Shown piece after piece: positions 4,075-27,890 of a stretch of 49,423 bases of DNA. The translations under genes and the position numbers were made by a program. The stretch is from Candidatus Zixiibacteriota bacterium (GTDB lineage: Bacteria > Zixibacteria > MSB-5A5 > UM-FILTER-46-8). Positions within the stretch are counted from its first letter, which is position 1. Each line of letters starts with the position of its first letter. The notes under the pieces were generated by a model that had not been told where the DNA came from, ran no database searches, and saw only the letters and a list, made by a program, of their open reading frames with translations. The DNA lies in assembly GCA_014730345.1 (NCBI GenBank), contig WJIJ01000067.1, positions 1 through 49,423 of the forward strand, read 5' to 3'.

Positions 4075-5703
4075 ATGGTAAAACGTGTGATGATAGTAGC
4101 CCTGAGTGTGATTATACTCGGAGGAGCACAGGTATTCGGCGCGTCGCCGGGTGACACCATCGGAACGACCTACTATGACCTTCAGAGTGAAAATTTAGCC
4201 GCGACCCGTATATGCGTAGATACATCCGGCGGAGTTCATTTCGCCTGGATCCATACCGCGGCGAGTTCATCCGGAGACCGTCATATTTATTACAATTTCA
4301 TTGATAACGGCGGATTTGTCTCGTGGTCATCGGGTACGCAGATAAGCACCAGCGCGGGAGCGGGGTTCCCTGACCTGGGGGTATTCCCGAACGGCACCGG
4401 CGCGGTGGTGTACCATAATACTAATAACAACAATTGCAATTTCGGAAAGGACAGCGGCCAGGGATTTGGTCTCTTTTCAATAATCGATATACCGGATGAG
4501 GTTCCTGGAGAAGCCACGGCGTATTGGCCAAAGGTTTCGCGGGATTCTTCAGGCACATGGCATGCGGTAGCGACGAGTTATGCCATGAGTACGGAATTGC
4601 CGTTTATTTATACTTATTCGACGAATGATGGAGCCAATTGGGCTTCGCCGGTTCTCGTGGATACGGTGGTAAATATGACCCCGTTCCCGGTTTCCTCGAG
4701 GGTCAGCACCAAGACGGCGATTGTCTGGGGGCGTCCGATCGATATTTCCAGCCCGGATTACTATGATTCGGACCTTTATTATGTGCAGTCGGCTGACGGC
4801 AGTACATGGGATTACAATACCAAGGTTAATGTAACCAATTACAGCGGGGCTGATACTCTGCGTGTATTTACAGATATCGATGCCGCATACGATTATAATG
4901 ACAACTTGCATATTGTATGGAGCGCGGTGGTTTATTACGCTGGAAGCGGAGACGCGATGAATGATTCATCGGCGTTGTTCCACTGGTCATCGGCGACCGG
5001 AATCGATACGATCGCGACGGCTTTCGAGAATAGCGCCCCTTCCCTTTATGATCTGAACATAGCGAAAGTTAATATCGGGGTGGATGTAAATAACAATCTC
5101 TTCGCGGTATGGACCCGATTTACCAATTCGGACAAATCCGCGGGAGGCTACTCGAACGGTGATATATATTATGCATATTCGACGGATGCCGGCAACACCT
5201 GGTCCACTCCGGAGAACCTGACCGACAGCCAGAGCGATGGTTGCACGGCCGGAAACTGTGACAGTGATCACTGGCCCGCGCTTGCGGAAACGGTCGACCA
5301 GTATCTGCATATTCTTTACATCCACGATACGGATGCCGGTTCAATTGTGCAGGGAGAAGGCAGTGAAGCGATAAGCCAGGTGATGTATTACAAGCATGAG
5401 AACCCGCTGTGGGTTGGAATTGATGATAAGCAACAACCCCGGGAATACGAGCTTACTCTTTCCAATTATCCGAATCCGTTTAATAGTGTTACTGTGTTTG
5501 AATTCCCGCCGGTGGAGGAAGGCGAGTTGACTGTTTACAACCTCCTCGGTGAGAAGGTAGCTGAAATAGAAGTGGCTAACAGTTCAAGGATAGAATGGGA
5601 CGGCCGGAATATCTCTGGCAGGGAGCTTGCCAGCGGCGTTTACTTCGCCAGGCTTCATGCGGGAGATAACACCTTGACCCGCAGGATATTAATGTTGAAG
5701 TAG
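4075..5703 (+). CDS. Secreted Asp-box (BNR, sialidase-like) protein with T9SS type A sorting domain
   Basis: The 542-residue product has a GGGAGG SD 6 nt before the ATG and a signal peptide ending near VFGAS (residue ~24). The body is rich in beta strands and carries Asp-box loops: STNDGANW near residue 182 (Asn in the usual Asp place) and STDAGNTW near 370. A motif GCTAGNCDSDHW near 390 is shared with three paralogs at 42293-48009. The tail opens with NYPNPFN near 464, continues with VYNLLGEKV and ASGVYF, and ends in basic RRILMLK, as expected for T9SS cargo that is cleaved and anchored at the surface. Asp boxes mark a beta-propeller fold, but I cannot find the arginine triad of true sialidases, so enzymatic activity is unproven. 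It is monocistronic, with a strong terminator 25 bp downstream. Confidence 0.93.
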   Translation: MVKRVMIVALSVIILGGAQVFGASPGDTIGTTYYDLQSENLAATRICVDTSGGVHFAWIHTAASSSGDRHIYYNFIDNGGFVSWSSGTQISTSAGAGFPDLGVFPNGTGAVVYHNTNNNNCNFGKDSGQGFGLFSIIDIPDEVPGEATAYWPKVSRDSSGTWHAVATSYAMSTELPFIYTYSTNDGANWASPVLVDTVVNMTPFPVSSRVSTKTAIVWGRPIDISSPDYYDSDLYYVQSADGSTWDYNTKVNVTNYSGADTLRVFTDIDAAYDYNDNLHIVWSAVVYYAGSGDAMNDSSALFHWSSATGIDTIATAFENSAPSLYDLNIAKVNIGVDVNNNLFAVWTRFTNSDKSAGGYSNGDIYYAYSTDAGNTWSTPENLTDSQSDGCTAGNCDSDHWPALAETVDQYLHILYIHDTDAGSIVQGEGSEAISQVMYYKHENPLWVGIDDKQQPREYELTLSNYPNPFNSVTVFEFPPVEEGELTVYNLLGEKVAEIEVANSSRIEWDGRNISGRELASGVYFARLHAGDNTLTRRILMLK

Positions 5704-6158: not shown

Positions 6159-9100
6159 ATGAGGGTCCCTATAGGGATTGAAGGAAAATTCGCCTCGTTG
6201 GTCGCAGTATTAATTGTTGTGCTCTTTACGGGAACAGCCTTGGCATCAACGACCGGACAGATAACCGGTACGGTAACTGATAGGCAGACAGGAGAACCTC
6301 TGCCTGGTGTAACTGTTCTTATAAAGGGAACAAGTATCGGCGCGGCGACCGATTTCGATGGTTTCTATCGAATTCAGAACGTAGCGCCGGGAACTTACGA
6401 ACTGGCGATTTCGCTGGTTGGATACGCGCCGACAACGGTCAGCGATGTTAAGGTAAGTATCGACAAGGTTACTACTGTGGATGTGAAGCTCATTTCTGAA
6501 GCAGTACAGTTTGAGGAAGTTAAGGTTGTGGCTAAGAGACCCCCGATCGAGAGCCGGGTGACATCAAATGAAGATGCCATAGGCGCTGATGAGATAGGGG
6601 TTATCCCGGTAAAGGATACCAAGGGAATTCTGGCCACGCAGGTAGGTTTTGTTAAACGCGGAACGCAGTTGCATGCCCGCGGTGGCCGTGCCGGCGAAGT
6701 AGTTTTCCGGGTTGACGGCGTTGATACCAATGACCCGCTTGGAGTTAATTCGCCTCGTACGGCGGATATACGAACAGGTGTCGGCAACGACGCGTCCGGA
6801 CGTGAATTCGCCAAAGCGGAATCACCTTTTTTAAGTATGGATGTGTCCTCCAATGATATTTCGGAGATATCCATCATTAAAGCGGGTTGGCCCGCGGAGT
6901 ACGGCAATTTGCAGTCGGGTTTGGTAAACCTTGCAACCAAAGAAGGTGACGCGAGATTTACCAGTGGATATCTTGAATACACCACGGATGATTTCGGCTC
7001 GCCGTCATTGAATAAGTATTCATTTAATTCCGACCGTTTTGACGCGTCGATTTCCGGACCGGTTCCGCTTGTTCAGGATGTTCTTTTCCCGAAACTGGGT
7101 CTCGAATTTCCGGGCGAGAGTTTCGCGTATTACGCATCATTCTCGGTTGATAAAACCGATACCTACACGGCATATTCGGATTTCGCGCCCAGCCAGCTGG
7201 ACACTTACTGGGGCCGGGAAGAACGGTTATGGGATGTTTTCCGCGTCGATTTTCCCATGCGTCAATCGAATTCTTATAAAACAAGCATTAAGCTGACTTA
7301 TAAGCTCGATGCCGCGCGGAAGGTAAACTTAAGTTATAAAAAAGATTGGAGCGAATATATAGATTGGGACTGGGATTGGCGTTATACTCCGCATACAGCT
7401 CCCCGGCAGGAGACCTGGTCTGAGTTGTGGCAGGTTTACTTTACCGATAAACCTGGTTGGATTAAGAATACATTCTATGAATTCCAGGTATCGAAGTATA
7501 CTATCGCCGCGACCCGTAAACCGGGTGGCAATGTACCCGGCGATTTCCTGTTTTTCGATGAATGGGAATTTTACGAGGATGAGAATAACAACGGTCAATG
7601 GGACGACGATGAGCCGTATATCGACAGCAACGGCAATGGCCAGTATGATTTCGGTGAACCCTTCACCGATCTAAATGGCAATGGCACCTGGGACTCCGCT
7701 GAGGAAATTACCCAGGACACAAACGGCAACGGCGAGTTCGATTATGAGAGACGCCGTGTTCAGCTTCCCGATGATCCCGAACCGTGGCAGGACGGAGATA
7801 TAAACCTTGGTGAACCGTTCCTGGATATGAACCAGAACGGTGTGTATGATGGTAACGATGTGGATATCTGGACCTCCGCCGATGACCTTAACGGCAATGG
7901 TAAATATGACGGGCCCAATGATGATTGGACACCTGGGATACCGTACCGTGATTTAAACAAAAACGGGGAATATGACGCTCCCGACGGATTCTACCAGTAT
8001 GGAGAACCGTTTGTCGACGAGAACGGCAACGGCAAGTGGGACGGCACAGACCTGTTTTTCGATTATGGCGGTTATGACGGCCGTGCTACTTACAGCCATC
8101 GGCGCTCGGATATCTATACTATAAAGCTGGACGTAACCAGTGCTCCGTCTGAACACCATGATTTGAAAACCGGTGTGGAATATAAATTCATTAAATTGCG
8201 TATGGCGGACCTTCGATATCCGTTCAGCCGCTATATCGGTCAATCACCTGATCCCAATGAGCCCTGGAATGACAGGGGATCGTTCCGTGATTTCTACTGG
8301 AGAACACCCAAGCAGGGCGCGTTTTATATTCAGGATAATATAAGTTACGGCGAGTTGTACATAAACCTCGGTTTCCGCTGGGATTATTTCTACCAGGCGC
8401 AGGAAGTTTTCAGTATATCTGACGAGGAAGCTCCCTATTACGCGATTGAGGATATTAAGGATACCCAGAACAAGTTTTCGCCGAGATTGGGCGTGTCTTA
8501 TCCGATTTCGGAGAAGGCCAAGGTTTACTTTAACTATGGTCACGCATACCAGTTGCCCGAGTATTATCGTTTCTACGCGCGGGCAACCCAGAACATCACT
8601 GCCGGCGGCGGTGGAGCGCGCGGTATTGTAGGAAACGTAAATCTTGACTTTGAGAAAACGGTTCAGTACGAATTGGGTGTCGAATACCTTATAGACAATG
8701 CCCATAAACTGAAAATCTCCGGTTTCTATAAAGACCAGTACGGTCTTATCAATGTTGTTGAGGGGCAGGGCGTGCTTGCGGCTGATAGATATACCAACCT
8801 CGACTATGCCCGTTCGAGGGGTTTTGAGCTCGAGTTAACCAAGTCTATAGCCGATTACCTGACCTGGGGAGCCAAGTATGAGTATTCCTGGGCATTCGGT
8901 AAATCATCTTCCGGAACCTCGGATTATTACCTGCGCTTTACCACCGGCCAGATTCCGCTTAAGGAATCCGCGCTGGATTGGGATATCCGTCACCAGGTTA
9001 ATATCGACGCTACCCTCAGTATAAGGAAGGACGATCACCCGGTAGTAGCAGGTATCAAACTTCCTGATGCCTGGGGCGCCAGCATAATCTGGCAGTTTAA

Positions 9101-9443
9101 CTCCGGTTATCCTTACTCGCCTTCCAGCCAGCATCCGGGTATTGTAGTAATAGGTAATGTTACTCCGCCCCAGAATACCGAAAGGCAGAAGCCTTACTCC
9201 AACGTTGACTTGCGCCTTTATAAGGATTTCGCGGTCAGCGGTCTGGATTTCACCTATAGTCTCTGGATTACGAATCTGTTTAACAAGAAGAACCAGTTCA
9301 GGGTCTATGGCGATACCGGCAGAGCGGATACTTCCCAGTTAACTTCCGATCGTCGAATCGTTACCGGAATTGATCATGATAAAGATCCCGCGAACTGGGG
9401 TCCGGGCAGGAATATTAAAATGGCTTTGGCTGTTAAGTTTTAA
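6159..9443 (+). CDS. SusC/CirA-like TonB-dependent receptor with an inserted array of calcium-type loops
   Basis: The 1094-residue outer-membrane protein has a strong SD and a signal peptide cut near TALAS (residue ~29). Residues ~33-115 form a carboxypeptidase-regulatory-like domain (GQITGTVTDRQTGEPLPGV, later DGFYRIQNVAPGTYEL), typical of SusC-type receptors. A plug domain follows (~118-260; QLHARGGRAGEVVFRVDGVD). The rest is beta-barrel and ends in the aromatic ALAVKF. Residues 474-631 are unusual: eight copies of D-x-N-x-N-G-x-[WYF], the calcium-loop pattern of thrombospondin type 3 and dockerin repeats, inserted in the barrel region, probably in an extracellular loop. The receptor would import a ligand using TonB energy; the ligand is unknown. 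It heads a four-gene operon, which argues for a dedicated surface complex rather than a siderophore receptor. Confidence 0.94.
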   Translation: MRVPIGIEGKFASLVAVLIVVLFTGTALASTTGQITGTVTDRQTGEPLPGVTVLIKGTSIGAATDFDGFYRIQNVAPGTYELAISLVGYAPTTVSDVKVSIDKVTTVDVKLISEAVQFEEVKVVAKRPPIESRVTSNEDAIGADEIGVIPVKDTKGILATQVGFVKRGTQLHARGGRAGEVVFRVDGVDTNDPLGVNSPRTADIRTGVGNDASGREFAKAESPFLSMDVSSNDISEISIIKAGWPAEYGNLQSGLVNLATKEGDARFTSGYLEYTTDDFGSPSLNKYSFNSDRFDASISGPVPLVQDVLFPKLGLEFPGESFAYYASFSVDKTDTYTAYSDFAPSQLDTYWGREERLWDVFRVDFPMRQSNSYKTSIKLTYKLDAARKVNLSYKKDWSEYIDWDWDWRYTPHTAPRQETWSELWQVYFTDKPGWIKNTFYEFQVSKYTIAATRKPGGNVPGDFLFFDEWEFYEDENNNGQWDDDEPYIDSNGNGQYDFGEPFTDLNGNGTWDSAEEITQDTNGNGEFDYERRRVQLPDDPEPWQDGDINLGEPFLDMNQNGVYDGNDVDIWTSADDLNGNGKYDGPNDDWTPGIPYRDLNKNGEYDAPDGFYQYGEPFVDENGNGKWDGTDLFFDYGGYDGRATYSHRRSDIYTIKLDVTSAPSEHHDLKTGVEYKFIKLRMADLRYPFSRYIGQSPDPNEPWNDRGSFRDFYWRTPKQGAFYIQDNISYGELYINLGFRWDYFYQAQEVFSISDEEAPYYAIEDIKDTQNKFSPRLGVSYPISEKAKVYFNYGHAYQLPEYYRFYARATQNITAGGGGARGIVGNVNLDFEKTVQYELGVEYLIDNAHKLKISGFYKDQYGLINVVEGQGVLAADRYTNLDYARSRGFELELTKSIADYLTWGAKYEYSWAFGKSSSGTSDYYLRFTTGQIPLKESALDWDIRHQVNIDATLSIRKDDHPVVAGIKLPDAWGASIIWQFNSGYPYSPSSQHPGIVVIGNVTPPQNTERQKPYSNVDLRLYKDFAVSGLDFTYSLWITNLFNKKNQFRVYGDTGRADTSQLTSDRRIVTGIDHDKDPANWGPGRNIKMALAVKF
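7578..8052 (+). repeat. Eight calcium-type D-x-N-x-N-G loops inside the TonB-dependent receptor
   Basis: Residues 474-631 of the receptor contain DENNNGQW, DSNGNGQY, DLNGNGTW, DTNGNGEF, DMNQNGVY, DLNGNGKY, DLNKNGEY and DENGNGKW, mixed with GEPF and GIPY phrases. The unit resembles thrombospondin type 3 or dockerin-like calcium-binding loops. It is a protein-level repeat; the DNA copies are diverged. Confidence 0.85.
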
Positions 9444-9499: not shown

Positions 9500-12241
9500 A
9501 TGAACAAATTTAAGAGGATAAATTATAAATTCGGCTTCTTGGTTTTACCGTTTTTGCTTCTCGCGTTTATGATTATGACCTCTGACGGTCTTGGTAGAAC
9601 CATGCCTAAGAAGAAGGAATTCCGGCTGAACAAGCCGATGGTGGGAACGCCGAATGTAACTAACGCAACCCACCGGATTTCGAATATATGGTTTACCATT
9701 ACAAACTGGGGCTTTTTGGGGAGCGCCCAGTCCACAGATATTATCGATTGTGAAACAGGCGAAGTCGCCCCGTCATGCTGGTTCCCTGCGGGTTCGGACC
9801 TGGAATACCTTTTCCAGGGAGCAATCTGGGTGGGAGCTATAGTCGAAGGCGACACACTGGTTTCATGCGGTACTGACGGCTGGTGGGATACCCACGAGTA
9901 TTTTCCGGATGAATCCGGTGATTCCACCGGTGAGATCTGGTTAGGCTCTGTGCGGCCTTCAACGGCATATCCCCGCGTAACCGATAATAACTGTTATGAA
10001 TATCAGATACCGGAATCGCTCTCGATATCCGAGGAAGATTTCATAGCTTATTATACTGACACGAACACGGTTGTCGCCGAGGTAGATCCTATCGACGCGA
10101 GACCGTTGAGGCCCCTGGGTCTCCAGGTGGAGCAGAAGAGTTATTCCTGGTCTTATGAATACGCCGAGGATTTCATTCTTTTCGACTTCAAGTTGACCAA
10201 TATCGGGGAGAACGCGTTATCTGATATGTGGATGGCATTCCATATCGATGCTGACGTTCACCATACTTCCGTAGGTTCTCCGGGAGCGCAGGACGATATC
10301 ACCGGCTTTCTGGAGAAATCACAGCCAATCGAGGGTGTTGACAGTCTCGATATTAACACTGCGTACATTATGGACAACGATGGCGACCCTGGAGACGGCG
10401 ATGTTTGGGACAACCGATCAGTGCGCGGTTTGACCGGCACCCGTGTTGTACGTTTGCCCGAGGGCGTGGACAGCCTTGGTTTTAACTGGTGGATTTCGAA
10501 TGTGAATTCCCAGTTGGACTGGGGTCCGCAATGGCTTTCCAATTACATAGGACGTTTCCCGGGCGGTGGTTTAGGCACACCCGGCGGTGATGCTACGCGT
10601 TATTACATCCTTTCGAATTTCGAGTTTGACTATGACCAGGTTTTCGCGGCGATAGATTGGACGGCGGAAGATGATCCGCCGGGAGGAAAAACATGGTTGG
10701 CTCCTCTGGGTGAGGATCTGGCCACAGATTTAGCGAATGGGTATGATACCCGGTATACATATTCATTCGGGCCATTCCCGACTATCGACCCGGGCGATTC
10801 GGTTCTTCTAACGGTAGCTTATGTTGCCGGCGCGGATCTTCATGTCAATCCGCTTGATTACTCGGAAACACTCGAAAATAACGAAACTAACAGGACCGCG
10901 ATTGAATCATTTATAGGCAGGTTGGATTTCAGCGATTTCGCCTTGAACGCCACCTGGGCTGACTGGGTATATGACAACCCGGGAGTGGATACTGACGGCG
11001 ATGGCAACTTCGGTGATTGCGGTCAGTGGGAATTCGATGGAACAGGGGATTCTACCTGCGCATTGTGGGTGAAGGGCGATGGAGTACCTGATTTCAGCGG
11101 TCCTCCGCCTCCGCCTTCGCCGCGTCCGCTGAACTTCTCTACGGAAGTAAATTCTGTTACCCTTTCCTGGAATTCCACGGTATCCGAGTATACTGAGGAT
11201 ACTTTTGGTAATGGATTTGATTTCGAGGGTTATAATGTTTACAGGTCGAGGTCTCAAAGGCTCGATGAGTTTACCTTATTGGGATCTTACGACCGTATAG
11301 ACTATGACAGTTTCTATTATGACCCGTTAAGAGGCAGGATGGTTCTCGGTAAATCAAGGCCGCTGACTCTCAAGGAACTGAAGGAGAGATACGGAAGCAA
11401 AGTTACTTCCGGCCAGATAGGCCAGAACGTACCGTTCATTGTAGAGAACAAACCGCCTTATGAGCCGTTGCATTGCCCGATGGACCACGGATTCAAGGTA
11501 TACCGTCCCCATGGCAACAACACCGGGCTTTACGAGGACTATACAATAGTCAATAAGATACTCGATGGCGTTATCGGGCCAGACGGCGAGGTTATAGAAG
11601 CTGACACCACATGGTTGACGTTCGATTTTAAGAACGACGCGAACCATATATTTGACAGTACTGTGGTAAATGGCGATACATTGTCCGATGGTACGGCTGT
11701 TGACAAACATTACTACAGCTACAAGATTACCGGTTCGCTTTCCAGTATTCCTTATTACTATTCTGTAACTTCCCTGGATTATGGTGATCCCCGTACAAAG
11801 CTTGCTCCGCTGGAGAGTTCGAAGGGAATCAACATGACCTCGATTTACGCGATCAACGATTTCGAAAAGGTAGAGGCTAACCAGGTTTATGTCTATCCCA
11901 ACCCGTACATAGATGACGGCCGTTACCGGACGGAGGGCTGGGAGGATATTAACCAGGATCCCCAGTACTCCAAGAGGATATATTTTGCCAACTTGCCTCC
12001 GGGTGACGTTACAATCAGGATATTTACCTTAGATGGCGACCTTGTTGATAGAATAAACGTAACCTCGAATCCAGTGGATGATAATTCGCAAACCGAAAAC
12101 CAGCTTGTAGAGGTCGATCAACCGATCGTAAGCTGGGATCTAATCTCCCGAAACACGCAATCGATCGTATCCGGAATATACCTGTTCAGCGTAGAATCGG
12201 ATTTCGGGCGGCAGATTGGCAAATTCGTGGTTATTAAGTAG
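9500..12241 (+). CDS. Large secreted receptor-partner protein with FnIII-like segment and variant sorting domain
   Basis: The 913-residue product starts at an ATG 7 nt after GGGAG, 56 bp past the receptor gene. A hydrophobic segment at ~12-28 (FLVLPFLLLAFMIM) is a likely signal peptide. The N-terminal ~530 residues have no family I recognise; they are rich in Trp, Tyr and acidic residues and include phrases such as FNWWISNVNSQ. A proline linker (GPPPPPSPRPL, ~535) leads to a FnIII-like segment with NVYRSRS. The end (from ~796) has VYVYPNPYID instead of NYPNPFN, then RIFTLDGDLV, SGIYLFSV and the final KFVVIK. This is a divergent form of the T9SS C-terminal domain. In many FCB genomes such a protein follows a SusC-like receptor and precedes a PorV/PorQ gene; I infer it is the surface-exposed partner of the receptor. 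Biochemical role unknown. Confidence 0.88.
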   Translation: MNKFKRINYKFGFLVLPFLLLAFMIMTSDGLGRTMPKKKEFRLNKPMVGTPNVTNATHRISNIWFTITNWGFLGSAQSTDIIDCETGEVAPSCWFPAGSDLEYLFQGAIWVGAIVEGDTLVSCGTDGWWDTHEYFPDESGDSTGEIWLGSVRPSTAYPRVTDNNCYEYQIPESLSISEEDFIAYYTDTNTVVAEVDPIDARPLRPLGLQVEQKSYSWSYEYAEDFILFDFKLTNIGENALSDMWMAFHIDADVHHTSVGSPGAQDDITGFLEKSQPIEGVDSLDINTAYIMDNDGDPGDGDVWDNRSVRGLTGTRVVRLPEGVDSLGFNWWISNVNSQLDWGPQWLSNYIGRFPGGGLGTPGGDATRYYILSNFEFDYDQVFAAIDWTAEDDPPGGKTWLAPLGEDLATDLANGYDTRYTYSFGPFPTIDPGDSVLLTVAYVAGADLHVNPLDYSETLENNETNRTAIESFIGRLDFSDFALNATWADWVYDNPGVDTDGDGNFGDCGQWEFDGTGDSTCALWVKGDGVPDFSGPPPPPSPRPLNFSTEVNSVTLSWNSTVSEYTEDTFGNGFDFEGYNVYRSRSQRLDEFTLLGSYDRIDYDSFYYDPLRGRMVLGKSRPLTLKELKERYGSKVTSGQIGQNVPFIVENKPPYEPLHCPMDHGFKVYRPHGNNTGLYEDYTIVNKILDGVIGPDGEVIEADTTWLTFDFKNDANHIFDSTVVNGDTLSDGTAVDKHYYSYKITGSLSSIPYYYSVTSLDYGDPRTKLAPLESSKGINMTSIYAINDFEKVEANQVYVYPNPYIDDGRYRTEGWEDINQDPQYSKRIYFANLPPGDVTIRIFTLDGDLVDRINVTSNPVDDNSQTENQLVEVDQPIVSWDLISRNTQSIVSGIYLFSVESDFGRQIGKFVVIK

Positions 12242-12282
12242 TTGGGATGAATATAATGTTTAAAGATAATAAGGAGAAAATT

Positions 12283-13236
12283 ATGAGACAGGCAGCGGTA
12301 ATAGCCATCGCCGTGCTTCTTCTCCCAACGCTTGCGTTCGGGCAGGCCAAGGTGGGAACCGCCGGCGCTCAATTTCTGGAGATTGGCGTATCCGCGCGCG
12401 GCATGGCTCTGGGAAACGCGATAGTGGCAAATGTAGACGATGCGTCGGCGGTTTATTATAATCCGGCTGCCATCGGCGAGTTTGACAGATATAAAGCGAT
12501 GTTTACCCACATATCTTATGTAGCGGATATAAACTACGAATTTGCCGCTTTGACCATGCCGGTCAATGCCTTAATGGGCAATGTAGGGATAGCGTTTTAC
12601 ATGTTGTCCACTGATGACATGCCGGTAACGTCCTTTAAGAATCCTACCGGAGCAGGCGCGCCGACATTCCAGGCAAAGGATTACGCGTTAGCGTTTACTT
12701 ATGCCGCGCCATGGACGGAGCATTTCAGCCTGGGGGTTACTGTAAAGTATATCGCCGAGCTGTATCATGATTACAAGGCGGAAGGCTGGGCGGCTGATGT
12801 GGGGACTTATTACAACACCGGATTCCGTAATCTGCGGATATGCATGTTGTTATCGAACTTCGGTCCGGATTTAAAATTTATTGAGGAAAAATATCCATTA
12901 CCCCAGGATTTCAAATTCGGCGTATCCATAGATGTGCTCCAGGGACCAACCCACAGGTTGATATTCCTGGGACAGATGGCCCACCCAAATGATAATCTCG
13001 AAAAGTACGCGACCGGTTTCGAGTACTGGTTTAACGACTTCGTGGCCCTCAGAGTAGGAAGAAATTATAATGTCGATTATGTATCGTCCAATGATTTCAT
13101 GAAATTTGAGGGTATGTCTTTTGGCGCCGGGTTGAAGATGGATGTTTCTAATTTCACCATGGGAGTCGATTATGGTTACCAGGATTTTGGTTTCCTGGAC
13201 GACACCCATAGGTTCTCGTTGAGCTTGGAATTTTAA
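12283..13236 (+). CDS. PorV/PorQ-family outer-membrane beta-barrel protein
   Basis: I start the gene at 12283, not at the in-frame ATG at 12247, because AAGGAG lies 6 nt before it and the resulting 317-residue protein begins directly with a clean signal peptide (MRQAAVIAIAVLLLPTLAFG, cleaved before QAKVG). The mature N-terminus reads AGAQFLEIGVSARGMALGNA followed by DDASAVYYNPAAI, the hallmark of the PorV/PorQ (UPF0164, FadL-like) family. The remainder alternates strands and ends in FSLSLEF, an aromatic barrel terminus. In Bacteroidota, PorV carries cargo bearing T9SS C-terminal domains from the translocon to the attachment complex. Members encoded next to TonB receptors, as here, are more likely dedicated paralogs; which role this one has cannot be told from sequence. 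It lies 41 bp after the 913-residue gene, in the same operon. Confidence 0.92.
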   Translation: MRQAAVIAIAVLLLPTLAFGQAKVGTAGAQFLEIGVSARGMALGNAIVANVDDASAVYYNPAAIGEFDRYKAMFTHISYVADINYEFAALTMPVNALMGNVGIAFYMLSTDDMPVTSFKNPTGAGAPTFQAKDYALAFTYAAPWTEHFSLGVTVKYIAELYHDYKAEGWAADVGTYYNTGFRNLRICMLLSNFGPDLKFIEEKYPLPQDFKFGVSIDVLQGPTHRLIFLGQMAHPNDNLEKYATGFEYWFNDFVALRVGRNYNVDYVSSNDFMKFEGMSFGAGLKMDVSNFTMGVDYGYQDFGFLDDTHRFSLSLEF

Positions 13237-13260: not shown

Positions 13261-15039
13261 ATGCACATAAAGAAAAAGCTCTGGGCTTTACCATTTATCA
13301 TAGTAACAACCGCGCTTGTGATGATAGGGTGTTCGGAGTTGGAATTAAGCGGTACGGCGCCGGATAATATAAGGCCGGAAGTTACCTTTTCCAACGTGCC
13401 AAACGATTCATCGTATTATTCTTCCAACCCGGAGGTAAACTGGTTCGGAAACGATGTAGACGGGCAGATTATTCAGTATCATTACAAAGTGATATTGAAG
13501 GACAGCCTTGCGGTTGCTTTGCAGGAATTCCTGGGTTCGTTCAGCACTCCGGATTCGTCCTGGATATCCGTGGAAACGGAATCAGACACTGTGGCGCTGT
13601 ATGCTTCACCGGAACCGGATGAGTACCTCGAGCAGTACATATTCCTCTGCGCCGAGGATGATGACGGCGCGTATTCCGATTTAGCTTACAAACTTTTCGC
13701 CAGGAACAACCATGCTCCCGACACCCACATCGAGGTAATTGAATCGGATACTATAGCCGGTTATGTATATTACAGTTATCCGTACTTAACCGATTATTAC
13801 GATGGCTTAAGACTGCAGTGGGAAGGTTCGGACTCCCTGGACTTCCCCGACGAACAGCCCGATTTCGAATTCCATTGGACATTGTATGGTCCCTTTGATG
13901 ATGAGCCATATATCGGTTTGGATTCATCGACATTCGATACGACAATGATCTATACGGCTTACGATTCGACATCGAACCAGACAGTAACCTGGGAGTCCTA
14001 TGATTCCACAAATCTCGATGTCTGGGTAGATGACGAGGATGTAACCCTCTATAATTTGCGTACCGGTTATTATGTGTTCCGGGTATTATCCAAGGATGAC
14101 GCTGAAGTGGTCGACCAAACCCCGCTGGATACGCTGACGGGTGAATACGAGTCGATTAAAATAATCCGGTTCGTGGAGCCTTTCTGGGTTACCGGTGAGG
14201 ATGCCGAGGAACTTCTGGTACTCGACTTTTCAAGGTACCGCAACTTCCCCGGTGAAAACGAAGAAGAAGATTCAAATTACGTGTTTTACAGGAAGGTGAT
14301 ACAATCGGCGGGAATCGACACATTGACCGAGGTACGCTGGGTACATAACGACAGTTCGGCAACGGTGGAACGGGCGACGTTGATTGAGCACCCGTTGATA
14401 CTGGTGCTGAATGACGACTGGTTCGAGCCAATACCTCAAAATATAAGTATATGGTTCCAAAAGTATCTTGGAGTCGGCGGGCAGATGATGGTAACAGGCC
14501 GTTACTGTTTCCGTGTCGGCGCCCGTACAAACTACATGGATTCCTTGTATTATGGTGAGGCTGGAGTTGGAACCGGTGTTGTAGCCGGCAATAACCAGCA
14601 GGGCTACCTCGCGCGCGACTATTTCAACCTCTACTATAGTATATTCCCCGGCTGGAACTTCCAGAATAATCTCAACCATGAGATGACCGGGGCTACCAGT
14701 GTTTACAGCGGATTACCCAATGTAAGTTTCGACACCACTAAGGTTCAGCAGGTTGTGGGGACGTTCTATACGGTGAACACCAATTACCTGCCGGCGGTGG
14801 AGAAATTGGTAAGGAATGCGGAGTCGCAGACTCTCTACGAGTTTAAATCGTTCCAACCGGAGTTTTCCGACTTCGATGGCTTCCCGGTGGCGAATTATTA
14901 CGCGCCGCGGATAATGATTGGCGAGAATATGCGTACCGCGTTCAAGACATCGTACTTTGCTTTCCCTCTTTATTATGCGGAGGAAAGCCAGGCGATAGAT
15001 GTTCTCACAACGATGTTTGGCATATACGGAATACAATAG
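13261..15039 (+). CDS. Lipoprotein with Ig-like N-terminus and GATase-like C-terminal domain
   Basis: The 592-residue product has a GGAGG SD and lies 24 bp after the PorV-like gene. The start MHIKKKLW, a hydrophobic stretch and MIGC with Cys24 form a lipobox, so it is probably lipid-anchored to the outer membrane; Ser follows the Cys. Residues ~35-150 look like Ig/FnIII strands (EVNWFGNDVDGQIIQYHYKV). Residues ~317-410 read as a Rossmann/GATase1-like unit (LLVLDFSRY, a FYRKVIQSAG helix, LILVLNDDWF, WFQKYLGVGGQMMVTGR), similar in pattern to ThuA-like and DUF4350-like domains, but I see no Cys-His catalytic pair. It is the last gene of the 6159 operon and is followed at once by a terminator. 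By analogy with SusC/SusD pairs it may be the substrate-binding or structural lipoprotein of the receptor; that is inference. Confidence 0.88.
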   Translation: MHIKKKLWALPFIIVTTALVMIGCSELELSGTAPDNIRPEVTFSNVPNDSSYYSSNPEVNWFGNDVDGQIIQYHYKVILKDSLAVALQEFLGSFSTPDSSWISVETESDTVALYASPEPDEYLEQYIFLCAEDDDGAYSDLAYKLFARNNHAPDTHIEVIESDTIAGYVYYSYPYLTDYYDGLRLQWEGSDSLDFPDEQPDFEFHWTLYGPFDDEPYIGLDSSTFDTTMIYTAYDSTSNQTVTWESYDSTNLDVWVDDEDVTLYNLRTGYYVFRVLSKDDAEVVDQTPLDTLTGEYESIKIIRFVEPFWVTGEDAEELLVLDFSRYRNFPGENEEEDSNYVFYRKVIQSAGIDTLTEVRWVHNDSSATVERATLIEHPLILVLNDDWFEPIPQNISIWFQKYLGVGGQMMVTGRYCFRVGARTNYMDSLYYGEAGVGTGVVAGNNQQGYLARDYFNLYYSIFPGWNFQNNLNHEMTGATSVYSGLPNVSFDTTKVQQVVGTFYTVNTNYLPAVEKLVRNAESQTLYEFKSFQPEFSDFDGFPVANYYAPRIMIGENMRTAFKTSYFAFPLYYAEESQAIDVLTTMFGIYGIQ

Positions 15040-17437: not shown

Positions 17438-19279
17438 CTATTTAATAAGGGAGACGCGGCCGGTTCGGTATTGATCACCGTACTTCAATCGGTAGAAGTA
17501 CAACCCGGATGTAAAACCATCCGCTTTCCATATAACTGAATGGTTTCCTCGTTCATGGAATCCTTGCATGAGTGTGGTCACGAGTTGGCCGCGGATGTTG
17601 AATATATCCAGTTTGATATTTTTCGGCGATGGGAGACAGCAATTAAAATTTGTGGACGCGTTAAAAGGGTTCGGATAAGCGTTAACCGTAACTTCCAAAT
17701 TTTCAGGAAGTCCGGGATCGTCAACCGAAGTGGCAATTAAGGCGGGGATGTAGTCAACGCCGTAATTTTGGGGAAAGTTGCTGTCACGGTAGTAACCGAT
17801 AAGGTTATCATTTCCGGAGATTTCAATTAAGCCATTGTTGGGATGATTATCCGGGTCGTTGATGACAGAAAGATGATCAAGGCTTAAAAATATGCCCGTG
17901 GATTGTCCTGTTTCCCGCATGCTGATCAATTCGCTGTCGCCGGAAAACTCCGCCGACACCCGGCAGTTGAATCTCTCCCAGCCATTCGGGTCATGGTTTT
18001 CATCAAAATCGATTACGATCATATGAACTTCATCGCCAACCCGGACGGTATCGATTTCTTGGCCGTAGGAATCGCAGAATTTAGCCGGGAAGAGATATTC
18101 GTCGATAGCTTTTATATAATCTTCACCCTCATCCATTAAATCCTCGATGGTGTGGTAGTTCCCGCTGCCCCGGCGGGACCATGAATGTTCATTGGATAAT
18201 CCCATCAAACCGTGTTGGGTATACAACGCCAGTATTATTATCCCCCGGGCATAGCCGTGGTCGAGGTCACGCCAATCGTTCCAGTGTTGATGAGGGTTCC
18301 AGCGTTCAAGGCTCTTTAAAAATGTTTCTTCATCTTCATAGTACTGCGGGTCGGAGAAGCTTTCGGAGATGCGGTATCCGAAATCATACAGGTCAGGGGC
18401 GGCATGGAAATCGTCCAGAAAATGAACTTCATTTCCGGCGTAAATCCATTCATCGATAGCCCTGTGGACCGCCTCAACTTCCGGTTCTTCACCGGTATAG
18501 GTGGAATCATAGCACCAGTTGCGGTTTAGGTTTATTCCATTCGCGTTATGACGGCTAAAACCCTCTGCGGCTCCATCGACATTGATTACCGGAACTATCT
18601 TGAATACAGTTTTATCAAGGAGTTTCTCGCCTCCGGGAGCGCCCCAGCCGATAAGGTGTTTCATCATCGCTTTCAGCATGAAACTTGGCGGAGTTTCCAT
18701 GGGATGTTGCCGTGATGTCAGCCAGGCGCATTTTTTGCCATAAGGATAGGCGGCGTTCGGGTCCTCGATGGTAACCAAGGGAATATCTCTGCCGTTGACG
18801 CTCTGTCCGATGATTTCATAACTGAAATACGGCGACGCGGAAAGCGAATCGAGGTCATTGAAAAGGTCGGTATATGTGTAGGGGAATGTTAAGGCAATCC
18901 GGGCGCTGTCTTCATCGAATGTATGCCGGAAGTACATATCATTGTTAGACATCCAGGTATCGTGGATCCTGAACCAGTTTTCATTGTCGTAAGACCCGAC
19001 CGGTTTGTGATTCTGGTTCATCCATCCATCACGATTGGTAATGCAGAAAGTAACCGTCTGACCGGACGCGTTACGGTCGATTTTAAAATAATACCAGCCA
19101 TAGAGGTCGCCATGCTGGTCGTCGAGGCGCAGGGTCAGGTTTATATGGTTCGTGTCCACAGTGCTGGCCGACTGCAGGCTGGCGCATTCGAAATCATAGG
19201 AGATATCATCGGCGGTAACCTGGGCAAAGGATGGCGAGTAGATGAGTAATGTTAGAAAAAGGGCGTTGAATAATTTCAT
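17438..19279 (-). CDS. Secreted M14-family zinc carboxypeptidase with T9SS sorting domain
   Basis: I use the ATG at 19279 (613 residues), since GGAG lies 6 nt before it; an ATG four codons upstream has no SD. The signal peptide ends near PSFAQ. An N-terminal beta domain (~20-135) precedes the peptidase. Zinc ligands are His192 and Glu195 (RQHPMETP) and His292 (DDFHAAPD). NLNRNW near 250 supplies the substrate-binding Asn-Arg pair and Glu364 (LSNEHSW) fits the general base. The RQHPxET form is closer to the cytosolic-carboxypeptidase-like (CCP/M14-like) branch than to carboxypeptidase A. It would remove C-terminal residues from peptides outside the cell. From ~534 the tail NAYPNPFNAS, FNIRGQLV, SGLYFYRL and GRVSLIK is a sorting domain. 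All catalytic residues are present, so activity is likely; the specificity is not predictable. Confidence 0.92.
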   Translation of the reverse strand: MKLFNALFLTLLIYSPSFAQVTADDISYDFECASLQSASTVDTNHINLTLRLDDQHGDLYGWYYFKIDRNASGQTVTFCITNRDGWMNQNHKPVGSYDNENWFRIHDTWMSNNDMYFRHTFDEDSARIALTFPYTYTDLFNDLDSLSASPYFSYEIIGQSVNGRDIPLVTIEDPNAAYPYGKKCAWLTSRQHPMETPPSFMLKAMMKHLIGWGAPGGEKLLDKTVFKIVPVINVDGAAEGFSRHNANGINLNRNWCYDSTYTGEEPEVEAVHRAIDEWIYAGNEVHFLDDFHAAPDLYDFGYRISESFSDPQYYEDEETFLKSLERWNPHQHWNDWRDLDHGYARGIIILALYTQHGLMGLSNEHSWSRRGSGNYHTIEDLMDEGEDYIKAIDEYLFPAKFCDSYGQEIDTVRVGDEVHMIVIDFDENHDPNGWERFNCRVSAEFSGDSELISMRETGQSTGIFLSLDHLSVINDPDNHPNNGLIEISGNDNLIGYYRDSNFPQNYGVDYIPALIATSVDDPGLPENLEVTVNAYPNPFNASTNFNCCLPSPKNIKLDIFNIRGQLVTTLMQGFHERGNHSVIWKADGFTSGLYFYRLKYGDQYRTGRVSLIK

Positions 19280-19391
19280 GTAATACTCCATCTAACTATC
19301 TATAATATACAGGAAATTCCCCTATTGTCAATAGCGATGCCGCAAGAGAATGAAGTGTAGTGATTTATAAAGTAAACGGGAGACATAAAAA

Positions 19392-21506
19392 CTATTTCAA
19401 AAGAAGCATAGCCGACGACTTGGTGTTTTGATCCGAGGAAAGCCGGAAGTAATATACACCGCTGGGCAGTCCGGAGGCATTCCATTGAATTGAGTATGCG
19501 CCGCGGTTTTGGTATCCGGTATGGAGATTTACGATATGCTGACCGAGGAGGTTGTAGATATCGATACGGACATTAGATTTTTCAGGTATCGAGTATTGGA
19601 TGCTGGTGGATGAGTTGAATGGATTGGGGTAGTTCTGGATAGTAAGGAAATCTCCGGGAGGGGGAGGCTCATCATCGGGGACAACTGTTTGTATAGAATC
19701 GCCGCCGCCATAAGCGCCCATATCGGAACGTTCTCCTCCCAACCCCATACTGCAGTCGAACAGGGTATCCCTCATTAAGGGGTCGCCTATATCGATGCAA
19801 GGGGAGTCATAAGGATCGCCGCACTCGACAGCCATAAGGTGAAAGTCACTGTTTTCCGGGTCCCTGAATAACGGTTCTATATCGATAATACCTGTCCCCG
19901 GATACCCGCCCTGTACATTGCAATATAAGACCGAATCGTCGGATTCATGGAGGACAAGCTGAAGGCCGTCATTGGACGAATTACCGTAAATGATGCAATT
20001 TTTGATTTTTGAATCTGAGCTTCGGGAATAGATTCCCCCGCCCCTTTCGGCAGAAGAGTTACCGTAGATAACATTGTTGATTATTATGCCGTCGCTGGCG
20101 AACAGGCGAATGCCCCCGCCGTCACGGCTGGCGTTGTTGTTGTAGATCAGGTTATTAAACAGCCGAAAGGAGGTGGAATTATCGTAGACCCCGCCGCCAT
20201 CGCGGGAGTAGTTTTCGTATATGCGGTTGAAGACAATTGTCGGCAGGGCGTTCTCGGTAACATAGATACCGCCGCCGAATGTATATGTGCGGTTGTTATA
20301 AATCTCGTTATTGTAGATAAAGGCATTCGAGTTGGATTTGCAGAAGATACCGCCGCCGGAACCGGAGCCCCTGCATATATTTCCACGGAAAGTATTCCCT
20401 TCTATAACCGGCCAGCCGATGACATGTCCGCAGTACATACCCCCTCCGCCATAAGTAACGTTTTCATTATTTTCGATTAAATTATCGCGAATGATAGGAC
20501 TGCATGTCGTGGCGATTCCTCCTCCGTAGAGGTGACCGCTGTTGTTATGTATATGGTTTTCTATAATCTGCATTTCGGAATATACTCCGCACCAGATGCC
20601 CCCGCCGTCCGCCTGGAGAGTCCTGTTGGAATCAATGGTGTTTTCGTAAACATAAGCGCTCGAATGCTCATAGCAATATATTCCCCCGCCGAATAACTCA
20701 GCGGTGTTTCCGGTTACCTGGTTATCGATGATATCGGGGCGGGAATAATTAACGCAGGCAATTCCGCCGCCGTTGGCTGAAGCTGTGTTGCCGCGGATGT
20801 AATTGGCGGTTATAACCGGATCGGCGTTGTATGTATATATTGCCCCGCCGTTGTTAAACGATGAATTATCCTCTATGTTGTTGTTCTCAATAATTGCTTC
20901 CGATTCAACGCAACCGATAGCGCCGCCTGTTTGAGCTAAGTTGGAATCAAACTGGTTGCCGGCGGCATAAGCTTGTGAGGAATATATATAAACCGCTCCC
21001 CCGCTCTGGCTGGCGATATTGTTTTTAAAGGTGTTGTTGATTATTGTGAGGTCGCATTCGGTTGCCAGAGCGCCGCCATTGTAAGCAGTATTTGATTTGA
21101 AGAGGTTGTTTTTTATTACCGGTGTGCTTTCATACTGGCATCCTATCGCTCCCCCATTTTCCGCCGAACCGTTTCTTAAGGTGAAACCGGTGACCATAGC
21201 AGTGCTGTCCTCGCCGTTTTCGAAAGCGATAATCCTGCCGTTATTGCTGCCGTCTAAAACGGTGATGGAAATATAGGAAGTATCGCCGGTAGTTAAATAC
21301 TGAGATGCAAGTACCACATTTTTCCCATTGAAATTAAGATGTTCTTCGTATATTCCGGGTTGGACAAGCACCGTATCTCCGTGTGACGCGGAGTTGATGC
21401 CGGTTTGGATATTACTGTAATCGTCGGGGATATTTATTATAACCGCGTTGGCGCTGAGAAATGAAAGGAACAGAATCGAGAGCGCCGGGATTATGATATT
21501 CTTCAT
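19392..21506 (-). CDS. Secreted right-handed beta-helix protein (GGGI repeats) with T9SS sorting domain, copy 1
   Basis: I start at 21506 (704 residues), where the signal peptide begins (MKNIIIPALSILFLSFLSAN); a longer frame starts at 21548 with a non-signal-like extension. After IINIPDDYSNIQ, a pectate-lyase-like N-cap with GDTVLVQPGIYEE, come about 15 units of 21-24 residues built on GG[AG][IVM] plus N-rich turns, such as NGGAIYT, FGGGIYC and DGGGIWC. This is the pattern of parallel beta-helices and of chlamydial Pmp passenger domains. Before the tail lies SPCIDIGDP and SDMGAYGG, the choice-of-anchor Q type end-cap. The C-terminus has QNYPNPFNSS, IYNLLGQHIV and SAMLLLK. Likely cell-surface or released; adhesion or polysaccharide lyase activity are both possible, and I see no lyase catalytic motif. 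Paralog of the gene at 21665. Confidence 0.92.
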   Translation of the reverse strand: MKNIIIPALSILFLSFLSANAVIINIPDDYSNIQTGINSASHGDTVLVQPGIYEEHLNFNGKNVVLASQYLTTGDTSYISITVLDGSNNGRIIAFENGEDSTAMVTGFTLRNGSAENGGAIGCQYESTPVIKNNLFKSNTAYNGGALATECDLTIINNTFKNNIASQSGGAVYIYSSQAYAAGNQFDSNLAQTGGAIGCVESEAIIENNNIEDNSSFNNGGAIYTYNADPVITANYIRGNTASANGGGIACVNYSRPDIIDNQVTGNTAELFGGGIYCYEHSSAYVYENTIDSNRTLQADGGGIWCGVYSEMQIIENHIHNNSGHLYGGGIATTCSPIIRDNLIENNENVTYGGGGMYCGHVIGWPVIEGNTFRGNICRGSGSGGGIFCKSNSNAFIYNNEIYNNRTYTFGGGIYVTENALPTIVFNRIYENYSRDGGGVYDNSTSFRLFNNLIYNNNASRDGGGIRLFASDGIIINNVIYGNSSAERGGGIYSRSSDSKIKNCIIYGNSSNDGLQLVLHESDDSVLYCNVQGGYPGTGIIDIEPLFRDPENSDFHLMAVECGDPYDSPCIDIGDPLMRDTLFDCSMGLGGERSDMGAYGGGDSIQTVVPDDEPPPPGDFLTIQNYPNPFNSSTSIQYSIPEKSNVRIDIYNLLGQHIVNLHTGYQNRGAYSIQWNASGLPSGVYYFRLSSDQNTKSSAMLLLK

Positions 21507-21664
21507 TTGATAATCTTCAAGGATTTTAGCGAGGCTACTACATACCATTCATGAATAAGTGAAAGCCAACGATATCTTCGCAATTGTTCACAAATAATAT
21601 AATCGATTATCAAATTTTCACAAGATATATTTTGAGGATAAAGCTGATAAGCCAGTAGAGAAGC

Positions 21665-23773: not shown

Positions 23774-24504
23774 TTAAAACCTGCCTTTCTCGAAAAATCA
23801 TACGGCTATTTATAAACCAGTTTGATTTTGGTTTCTAATACCACCCAGCCCTTAGTAGTCCAAAGCAGAAAAAAGCTATAATGATTATCGTTGTTCCAGC
23901 CCGAAGCAGATCAAAGCAGGTATTTATTCCTGGTGCGATTCCAAATCGCTTTAAACGACACACTTCTTAAGTAGCAAAGTGCTATCAAGCTGTAAAATAA
24001 TAATATATTCGAAAAAAGCAAGCATTATTATTTCTGGGAAGCAACTTGGGGTTTGGATTTTGCACCTGCTTTTACTATTTGTGAAAACGGTTTCATATTT
24101 TGAAAATGAAACCGAAGCAAGGAATTTGAATTTATTCATTCCTTTTGGAAAGGCCCGGTTTAAGTTGCTGGGGCAGTATAAAAACGGCTAAAAACAGGCT
24201 AAAAATGGGATTTCAAATTTACAAACATAATAAACTTCAAAACCGGCATTTCCTTTGCGTTTCAAGGGGTTTGAAAAGATATGGAAAACCCAATTAAATC
24301 TTGACAAATAGGGGAATTATATTATTTTATTATATCTGGATAGTAGGAAGATGTGTTCTCATCAATTACATATGATCCGGAATTAAAGCAAGCGTAAATT
24401 AGTGTTGCGTTTGCTAAGTTTTTGAAACTAATCGAGTAATGCAACTGTTACAATTACGGTAAGGAAAACAGGTCATTTTATTTAATTCTATCATGGAGGT
24501 TATA
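23774..24504. other. Long divergent intergenic region (about 730 bp), no gene seen
   Basis: The region separates the minus-strand beta-helix gene from the plus-strand protease genes. Two overlapping frames of 62 and 70 codons near 23951-24191 have no SD or recognisable features. A small hairpin GCGATT-CCA-AATCGC lies at 23935-23949. On the minus strand TTGGAC, 17 bp, TATTAG is a weak promoter candidate for the beta-helix gene. The plus-strand promoter at 24301 is listed separately; its ~165-nt leader includes a weak stem (GCAAGCG with CGTTTGC), but I recognise no riboswitch class. Confidence 0.5.
24301..24328 (+). promoter_or_regulatory. Probable sigma70 promoter of the tandem S8 protease genes
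   Basis: A perfect TTGACA (24301-24306) is followed after 16 bp by TATTTT (24323-24328) in a very AT-rich stretch with other possible -10 registers. Transcription would start near 24335, giving a leader of about 170 nt before the ATG at 24505. Confidence 0.5.
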
Positions 24505-27500: not shown

Positions 27501-27780
27501 TAAGGCGTTCGAACTTTCCCAGAACTATCCCAATCCGTTCAACCCCTCAACCAAGATAATGTACAGCCTGCCTTCGGACTCCAAGGTTAAGATGGTTGTT
27601 TACAACCTGATGGGTAGAGAAGTGGCTACCCTGGTTGATAAGCACCAGAAGGCCGGCAGTCATGAGGTGGCCTGGGATGGCAGAAACGCGGGCGGTCAGA
27701 AAGTAGCCAGCGGAATTTACTTCTATAAGCTGGATACAGATGACCAATCAGCAGTGAAGAAAATGCTTCTGATGAAGTAA
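24505..27780 (+). CDS. Secreted subtilisin-like (S8) protease with FG-GAP repeats and T9SS sorting domain, copy 1
   Basis: The ATG at 24505 (1091 residues) has GGAGG 5 nt upstream and begins a signal peptide (MYLSLRKTTIILLGLLFAFS); an ATG four codons earlier overlaps that SD and is less likely. Residues ~30-145 resemble an I9-like propeptide. The S8 domain carries the triad Asp179 (GISDTGV), His251 (THGTHVAG) and Ser402 (QGTSMASP). A calcium-type loop DINGNGTY and an acidic DDDDNGYEDD lie between Asp and His. From ~590, after an Ig-like segment (NPGENIEMVITL), come six or more FG-GAP/VCBS units of the form GDIDNDGSPEIIAG plus NHDGTVVSGFPV, predicted to form a calcium-rich beta-propeller. The tail has QNYPNPFNPS, VYNLMGREVA and KKMLLMK. 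Intact triad, so probably an active extracellular endopeptidase. Tandem paralog of the gene at 27891. Confidence 0.94.
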   Translation: MYLSLRKTTIILLGLLFAFSASAVYAEVLTSAEGYQYFSDRMIVCTTKDSPKLNTGELATAGFTTGVQSIDNLCAQYGVERVEPYYKGKLKRAVHLKELMSRTYVFFINETKSVHEARVAFSADTNVEHTDLWDIPVPFYTPNDPRLNQQWFLGQINAYDAWDIIRGQQSEFGIIGISDTGVYYEHPDLEPNMWINGPEDINGNGTYEPYDESSGGDWNYEDDDDNGYEDDVVGFDFGWGDPDPKEDSPTHGTHVAGCASEATDNDEGGAGIGFSGKIIAAKGARNGQLTAVYAAIIYSAENGAHVCNCSWGSNYYSNTNQQIIRNSFLDGCLVIAAAGNDGVSTRHYPAAYDSCLSVAATTRNDVRASFTNYGDWVDISAPGVDIYSTWATGSYQSLQGTSMASPVVSGVASLVISQNHLRTPQQIWDILKSSADSLSLYNANPNYIGQLGTGRVDAYAALAAGTMPNIQYVEMDISILNDDGDGILNPGENIEMVITLQNIWADATNVQGTLTGPSYMTVTDGEATFGNIPSGGEADNSADPFDVEIALDAPVEIADMNLHITAEGDYEVDLTIPLEIALNQLNFPMSVDGNIEGSFGFDDFDGNGVEEIVFGTSDDEVHIIDSDGTELPGWPVVVDGDVVGGVAIGQVDYAGTRDVVVATKTGNIYAINSLGSVFQGFPVNAGQSYYSTPTLADINGDNTHEIICTAFGDGKLYVLKSDGSDLDGFPVETGNRFYGSAAVGDIDNDGSPEIIAGVLDGNLQAWNHDGTVVSGFPVNLQDAIWVAPALGDIDNDGDLEIAIGTQGGNLYAVHHDGSIVSGFPAALSGTIKSDPSVAQVVGDDGLEIFVGTNDHFLYGVKGDGSIMTGFPVDCNNSITSSPSIADLDGDGENEVFVSATDGVIYGFNPDGSAVRNFPVPTYGTLTNSSVAIGNFDGDGDLELAVGLRQSFDNVFVVDYKETASFSGSDWRMFGHDITRTHRWHEWQTDIDDEGPDALPKAFELSQNYPNPFNPSTKIMYSLPSDSKVKMVVYNLMGREVATLVDKHQKAGSHEVAWDGRNAGGQKVASGIYFYKLDTDDQSAVKKMLLMK

Positions 27781-27822: not shown

Positions 27823-27890
27823 ATATGCTCTAAGACAAGAATGAAATATCCCTTCCGGCGGCTATTCCGTAAAAACTCAGGAGAATTGCT

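Follow-up and report, generated by a model that had tools for sequence, protein, structure and literature searches.

A TonB-dependent receptor encoded in the window (the whole stretch of 49,423 nucleotides of Candidatus Zixiibacteriota DNA that was analysed) carries, within a single predicted extracellular loop of its barrel, an array of eight EF-hand-type loops. The array receptor is real and conserved, and it joins known parts in a combination which was not found described in the open-licence papers searched. Taking together the sequence, its conservation, the modelled position of the loop and the operon, we infer that this loop, L4, is probably folded by calcium into a rigid surface domain that would serve as vestibule or lid and as a docking face, with calcium as a structural cofactor. 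The receptor is laid out as follows.

6159-9443, + strand: TonB-dependent receptor with the array, 1094 aa, PF00593 match
6261-6527, + strand: carboxypeptidase-D-regulatory-like domain at the receptor N-terminus, aa 35-123 (PF13715, 76.9 bits)
7470-7520, + strand: barrel strand 7, aa 438-454, heading outward (direction inferred from strand parity)
7521-8090, + strand: predicted extracellular loop L4, the putative calcium-loop array, aa 455-644, between strands 7 and 8
8091-8150, + strand: barrel strand 8, aa 645-664, then a turn of 2 residues

The 1094-aa protein is assigned to the TonB-dependent receptors by its family score and its predicted barrel and plug, with energised TonB transport as a putative function. 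It matches PF00593 (TonB_dep_Rec beta-barrel) at 108.6 bits (cut-off 27), while Pfam Plug alone scores 14.6 bits, under the cut-off of 23.9. An AlphaFold2 model of the whole receptor, built with 41 sequences, has a mean pLDDT of 79.2 and a pTM of 0.74; its barrel strands, counted from the DSSP list, number 22 and run from aa 269-276 to aa 1085-1093. The closest solved folds are FecA (Z 37.1) and BtuB (Z 36.6), and the VIA-align alignment to them spans aa 124-1094. As modelled, the receptor fold itself is ordinary, a 22-strand barrel with an internal plug. A SusC/RagA identity was rejected, as TIGR04056 gives 75.7 bits against a cut-off of 368.25, and the first-pass annotation's description of the receptor as SusC-like is, with FecA and BtuB as the nearest solved folds, not retained. 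The protein does resemble SusCD-type receptors with a surface lid in its barrel, its N-terminal regulatory-like domain and its likely surface partners, but it scores under the SusC/RagA cut-off and has PorV-family and T9SS-tailed genes where SusD would be; none of the three genes downstream of the receptor has a Pfam match to the SusD family.

The array consists of eight exact D-x-N-x-N-G-x-[WYF] motifs within aa 474-627, starting at residues 474, 489, 504, 520, 556, 576, 598 and 620 (window positions 7578, 7623, 7668, 7716, 7824, 7884, 7950 and 8016), precisely where the first-pass annotation had reported them (7578-8052). This count is far above what shuffling produces: 20,000 shuffles of the whole receptor gave a mean of 0.003 motifs and a maximum of 1, and 20,000 shuffles of the insert's own composition gave 0.008 on average and 2 at most. 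At the DNA level, the genome (3.58 Mb, 204 contigs) contains 22 copies of the motif's pattern, 8 of them in the window, and 7 copies of a reversed-control pattern. The first repeats step by 15 residues, as D-x-N-x-N-G-x-[WYF]-D-x-[GA]-E-P-[FY]-x. In EF-hand-type loops, side-chain ligands are numbered 1, 3, 5, 9 and 12, a backbone oxygen lies at position 7 and a hydrophobic residue at position 8. On this numbering the array unit reads as a 12-residue EF-hand-type loop, for which calcium is the putative metal; the units show the EF-hand loop pattern (D1, x3, x5, G6, x9, acidic 12), with position 12 varying in loops 4-7. The individual loops, and a further conserved segment between loops 4 and 5, are given below with their conservation among the aligned receptors.

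7578-7613, + strand: loop 1, DENNNGQWDDDE; positions 1, 3, 5, 9 and 12 identical in 41/41, D1 and E12 in 61/61
7623-7658, + strand: loop 2, DSNGNGQYDFGE; first position the least conserved among the loops
7668-7703, + strand: loop 3, DLNGNGTWDSAE; D1 and G6 in 61/61
7716-7751, + strand: loop 4, DTNGNGEFDYER; D1 in 61/61, position 12 mostly Arg and non-acidic
7779-7820, + strand: conserved segment E-x3-DGD-x3-GEPF, aa 541-554, a possible extra metal site
7824-7859, + strand: loop 5, DMNQNGVYDGND; D1 in 61/61
7884-7919, + strand: loop 6, DLNGNGKYDGPN; D1 in 61/61
7950-7985, + strand: loop 7, DLNKNGEYDAPD; N3 in 61/61, D1 in 60/61
8016-8051, + strand: loop 8, DENGNGKWDGTD; D1 and N3 in 61/61, D9 in 60/61

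In the segment at aa 541-554, E541, D545, G546, D547, G551 and E552 are present in all 61 orthologues, and in loop 1 positions 2, 4, 7 and 10 vary across the 41 aligned receptors. A set of loops free of circular seeding was obtained by taking every D-x4-G stretch in the array span, seeded on D1 and G6 only, which yielded 402 distinct loops. Among these, N or D occupies position 3 in 76%, position 5 in 77% and position 9 in 73%; entropy is 1.9, 1.8 and 2.0 bits at positions 3, 5 and 9, against 3.2-3.7 bits at positions 2, 4, 7 and 10, and in 150 control D-x4-G stretches from elsewhere in the same receptors it is 3.6-4.0 bits at all of those positions. Read from sequence, the combination of conserved positions 3, 5 and 9 with free positions 2, 4, 7 and 10 is the pattern of metal coordination, and the retention of coordinating positions among freely changing ones favours the calcium-type loops that had been proposed. 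Position 12 is non-acidic in most copies of loops 4-7, so that some loops may bind weakly. The array holds 41 acidic and 7 basic residues, for a net charge of about -34, and Asn at positions 3 and 5 is predicted to lower the charge of each loop. The alignment of the 61 orthologues has 100 columns that are identical in 60 or more of them; 24 of these columns fall in the array, and D, E or N occupies 16 of the 24. These 24 near-invariant columns contradict the reading of the array as a fast-evolving, low-complexity repeat devoid of specific function, as does the confidence of the predicted fold (below); loop number (4-12) and insert length (187-336 residues) do vary in the manner of such a repeat, and we consider that reading extremely improbable.

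The first-pass annotation had placed the array in the barrel region; the eight motifs stand, and their location is corrected from the barrel itself to the single loop that connects its strand 7 with strand 8. In the receptor model, the connections after odd strands are mostly longer than those after even strands, which are mostly turns of 2-8 residues (the exceptions: strand 18 is followed by 17 residues, and strand 2 by about 21 that include a short helix). In TonB-dependent receptors, short turns are periplasmic and long loops extracellular. The array follows strand 7, an odd strand, and is therefore assigned to extracellular loop L4. The structure prediction that had been called for thus has the array emerging from one extracellular loop (aa 455-644), and the AlphaFold2 model puts it outside the cell and not in the periplasm, the outcome that had been named as refuting the idea. 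Modelled in isolation, the array has nearly no secondary structure, with a mean pLDDT of 84.3 that reaches 93-97 over fragment residues 91-160; the pTM is 0.55, which leaves the packing of the loops against each other uncertain. Neither the whole-receptor model nor the isolated model contains a helix of at least 4 residues in the array. Confidently predicted coil is as expected of a coil held together by metal, the models themselves containing no metal.

The array was compared with solved structures and with described families. Foldseek of the isolated-array model matched no PDB chain, which left VIA-align without a target and does not by itself imply a new fold; with no match, there is no solved template showing metal in an array-like arrangement. 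Searches of PDB sequences gave nothing significant, either for the array by phmmer (best E 0.43) or for the array profile (best E 0.74, to the FrpC self-processing module). Pfam found no match to the window array at E 1, with one chance match at E 3.4, and among 41 array members it returned weak matches to GEVED (9), Dockerin_1 (5), DUF7282 (5) and others. Thrombospondin type 3 repeats place calcium loops in tandem within a structure that is largely coil, and the array resembles them in kind; their unit is DxDxDGxxDxxDxCP with disulphides. There is no cysteine in the array (aa 474-633), which is therefore not a classical string of these repeats, and this candidate was rejected on the cysteine-free insert and the absence of a TSP_3 Pfam match among the 41 members; Foldseek, which returned no chain of any kind, gave no hit to their calcium-wire fold. 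Dockerin type I shares DxNxDG-type loops with the array, and was rejected because the loop-helix pairs are absent from the model and the family score is weak: Dockerin_1 has no match in the window copy, and the five matching members out of 41 reach E 0.0018 at best. The lack of helices flanking the loops sets the array apart from both EF-hands and dockerins. The Dx[DN]xDG calcium-loop motif occurs, according to the part of Rigden et al. (2011; PMC3123361) that was available, in many folds with an extracellular bias and recurrent convergent use, and includes an irregular four-calcium insert in Tk-subtilisin. The array appears to share this loop chemistry, and the Tk-subtilisin insert resembles it in kind; the array differs in having Asn in place of Asp at position 5 and eight units in one barrel loop. 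Neither 'TonB' nor 'outer membrane' occurs in the available part of that text, and no TonB-receptor loop with an arm of some 190 residues made up of EF-type loops in succession was found in the open-licence PubMed Central papers searched.

The receptor is widespread in its phylum. It is matched at 1e-50 in 55 of 58 relatives, and its alignment is matched at 1e-30 in 132/132 genomes of the phylum; the match is strong in 128 of them, a figure that counts strong receptor matches, arrays having been read in 61 receptors. In the other four genomes (G022, G045, G052 and G112, 68-89% complete) the best match, at 190-276 bits, is in the range of paralogues. One genome (G025) is masked over the array, and three (G008, G101 and G114) yielded partial copies only. 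In G025, an apparent open frame of 24,498 aa (contig C6, 67500-74500; L238) results from a run of N, which accounts for 4,501 bases of the stretch. The 61 receptors are the window's own and 60 more: 40, one per genome, from the 58 relatives and 20 that cover further families. They were chosen by whole-receptor score and are full-length or nearly so, genomes with a fragment only or a weaker copy being mostly left out. Counted with the wider motif D-x-[ND]-x-[ND]-G-x-[WYFILMV], every one of the 61 carries 4-12 loops, and with the strict motif 3-9, although in one receptor (L108) one of the nine loops lies near the C-terminus, outside the array.

Beyond this group the array was not found, as the first-pass annotation anticipated in calling it unusual for the receptor class. 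The loop motif is absent from all ORFs longer than 250 aa in ten related loci (paralogues) of the same genome. No receptor with at least two loops was found among 43 named related loci, mostly from Bacteroidota, where the single ORF with two loops is a non-receptor. Matches in named genomes were all distant, at 26-45% identity. Of eight outside genomes, seven gave no match to the array profile; in the eighth (G132) the matches are weak and fall in two other ORFs. Its absence from paralogues and outside receptors marks the array as belonging to one orthologous receptor group. The receptor is best explained as vertically inherited and near-universal in the phylum, and the strong matches in 128 of 132 genomes suggest that its function at the surface is a core one and not the uptake of a niche nutrient.

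Downstream of the receptor lie three genes.

9500-12241, + strand: 913-aa partner protein; its C-terminal domain is weakly T9SS-type, and it carries one loop motif (DTDGDGNF)
12247-13236, + strand: PorV/PorQ-family outer-membrane protein (NF033709, 201 bits, cut-off 90)
13261-15039, + strand: 592-aa protein with a lipobox-like N-terminus and no Pfam family

The tail of the partner scores 16.7 bits with TIGR04183 (T9SS type A sorting; cut-off 23), and 3 of 8 orthologue tails score above the cut-off. A lipobox-like signal is found in 31 of 40 ORFs orthologous to the 592-aa protein. The PorV-family gene lies within 4.5 kb downstream in 39 of the 42 loci with at least 3.9 kb after the receptor, and the lipoprotein gene is present in 39 of the 42 loci whose downstream sequence reaches at least 4.7 kb. 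Three loci (L092, L100 and L103) have the room, yet the PorV-family gene was not found within 4.5 kb; in two of these (L100 in G049 and L103 in G032), the large partner occurs twice in tandem after the receptor and fills the space. Across the 61 loci, the gene adjoining the receptor is the partner in 36 and the PorV-family gene in 24, while in one (L094) the sequence ends too soon. The array had been suggested to hold the 913-residue partner. This is not supported, since the 24 loci with the PorV-family gene directly next to the receptor still have 4-8 loops, and the idea that the array serves the adjacent partner is weakened. A partner at a distance is conceivable: four loci (L095, L122, L123 and L124) have a gene resembling it some 5.7-6.1 kb beyond. 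The genome also encodes SprA, the T9SS translocon, and has 9 PorV-family matches. One of the nine follows an array-less receptor paralogue (C89, 8289-12026; L002 and L003), so that the pairing of receptor and PorV-family gene appears to be a wider theme in which the array is special to one member. The PorV-family neighbour makes a connection of TonB-dependent receptors with the type IX secretion apparatus open to testing. BamG is described in the available part of PMC12578637, where the word 'calcium' does not occur, as a FadL-type barrel and is compared with PorV; PMC2668756, as far as its text was available, concerns a subject other than the array receptor.

We propose that L4 would work as follows. 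Each unit (D1, N3, N5, G6, the backbone at 7, the aromatic at 8, D9 and often E or D at 12) would hold one Ca2+ without flanking helices. Because of its net charge of about -34, metal-free L4 should repel itself and be disordered, and in external Ca2+ the approximately eight loops, together with the E-x3-DGD segment, would turn it into a rigid domain, largely free of helices, at the mouth of the barrel. The folded domain would most likely be part of a substrate vestibule or lid and also a docking face for the PorV-family barrel, the lipoprotein and the T9SS-tailed partner that many families have. Calcium would be a constitutive structural cofactor and not a switch.

A precedent is provided by BtuB, the E. 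coli cobalamin receptor (1nqg, 1nqh and 3m8d), which is like the array receptor a 22-strand TonB-dependent barrel (Z 33-37). In BtuB, as described in the available part of PMC7360065, aspartates bind calcium near the substrate pocket outside the barrel, and cobalamin affinity falls about 1000-fold at sub-saturating calcium. By analogy, calcium in an external loop can matter strongly for substrate affinity in a TonB receptor. BtuB has two sites in a five-aspartate cage, whereas the array receptor lines up EF-type loops one after another in a single long loop. BtuB already shows that a TonB receptor can have calcium sites; a long arm of this kind was not found in the open-licence papers searched. 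The affinity effect in BtuB and the place of the array at the barrel mouth would also suit a gate, whose shape follows external Ca2+ and which opens or shuts the channel or lets a partner lid close. We regard such a switch as unlikely, given that many parallel loops with near-invariant ligands look structural, and that loops are kept in the 24 of 61 loci without an adjacent partner.

EF-hand-type loops can also bind other metals, as lanmodulin does with lanthanides, and the excess of acidic residues in the array could be taken to mean that the loops collect a metal for import (Ca2+, Mn2+ or a lanthanide), which would be either the substrate itself or a co-substrate in a chelate. The loops have only about three carboxylates each, with Asn at positions 3 and 5, sites that release metal to the plug would not be expected in such number, and a match to a metal-transport family is absent from all three operon neighbours; metal capture therefore seems highly unlikely. 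Similar strings of loops in other exported proteins (a 719-aa lipoprotein-like protein, a 557-aa pilin-like protein of G018 and the partner of G048, all described below) raise another alternative, in which the array is a cell-surface adhesin or an S-layer-like docking strip and the receptor merely its anchor. The barrel and N-terminal domain are, however, intact and conserved, so that transport or TonB coupling seems to be under selection, and we hold this alternative to be quite improbable. The calcium-folded vestibule and docking domain can also be extended, rather more speculatively, to a phylum-wide, calcium-built surface machine in which the L4 arm of the TonB receptor is the docking site for a PorV-family shuttle, for a lipoprotein and, where families have one, for a T9SS-tailed partner, an unlikely possibility. 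If it held, one complex would bring together TonB energy, attachment to the surface by T9SS and external calcium, and a further design would stand beside SusCD, BtuBG and the classical siderophore receptors.

Similar loops occur in other proteins of the window and beyond. The same motif had been noted in both S8 proteases, and both copies are real (DINGNGTY at 25102 and DINGNGQF at 28494). The two neighbouring S8 subtilases (24463-27777 and 27873-31163) share an Asp/Asn-rich stretch before the catalytic His, and the motifs sit in this stretch, between the catalytic Asp and His regions. Given that location, the likeness to the receptor array is one of motif, and kinship is not supported; the Tk-subtilisin insert motif, from what was available of Rigden et al. 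(PMC3123361), is similar to those of the S8 proteases. Three more proteins with T9SS type A sorting domains, TIGR04183 being above its cut-off, are encoded around the operon (4075-5703, 17441-19291 and 19395-21548). The partner's own DTDGDGNF motif lies at 10988-11011, and the G048 partner (L215) has one full loop motif with two similar stretches before it. Elsewhere in the same genome, the 719-aa lipoprotein-like protein (C46, 877-3033, - strand; L011) carries a second string of the same loops, set between ends that look Ig-like by eye. In G018 (C1:1406087; L213), the 557-aa protein has an N-terminus that by eye is PilX-like and four loops in a row. In G132 (Candidatus Neomarinimicrobiota), two non-receptor ORFs (L205 and L212) have one or two loops, several receptors share a contig with PorV-family genes, and the loop-bearing ORF on contig C4 stands directly after a receptor match.
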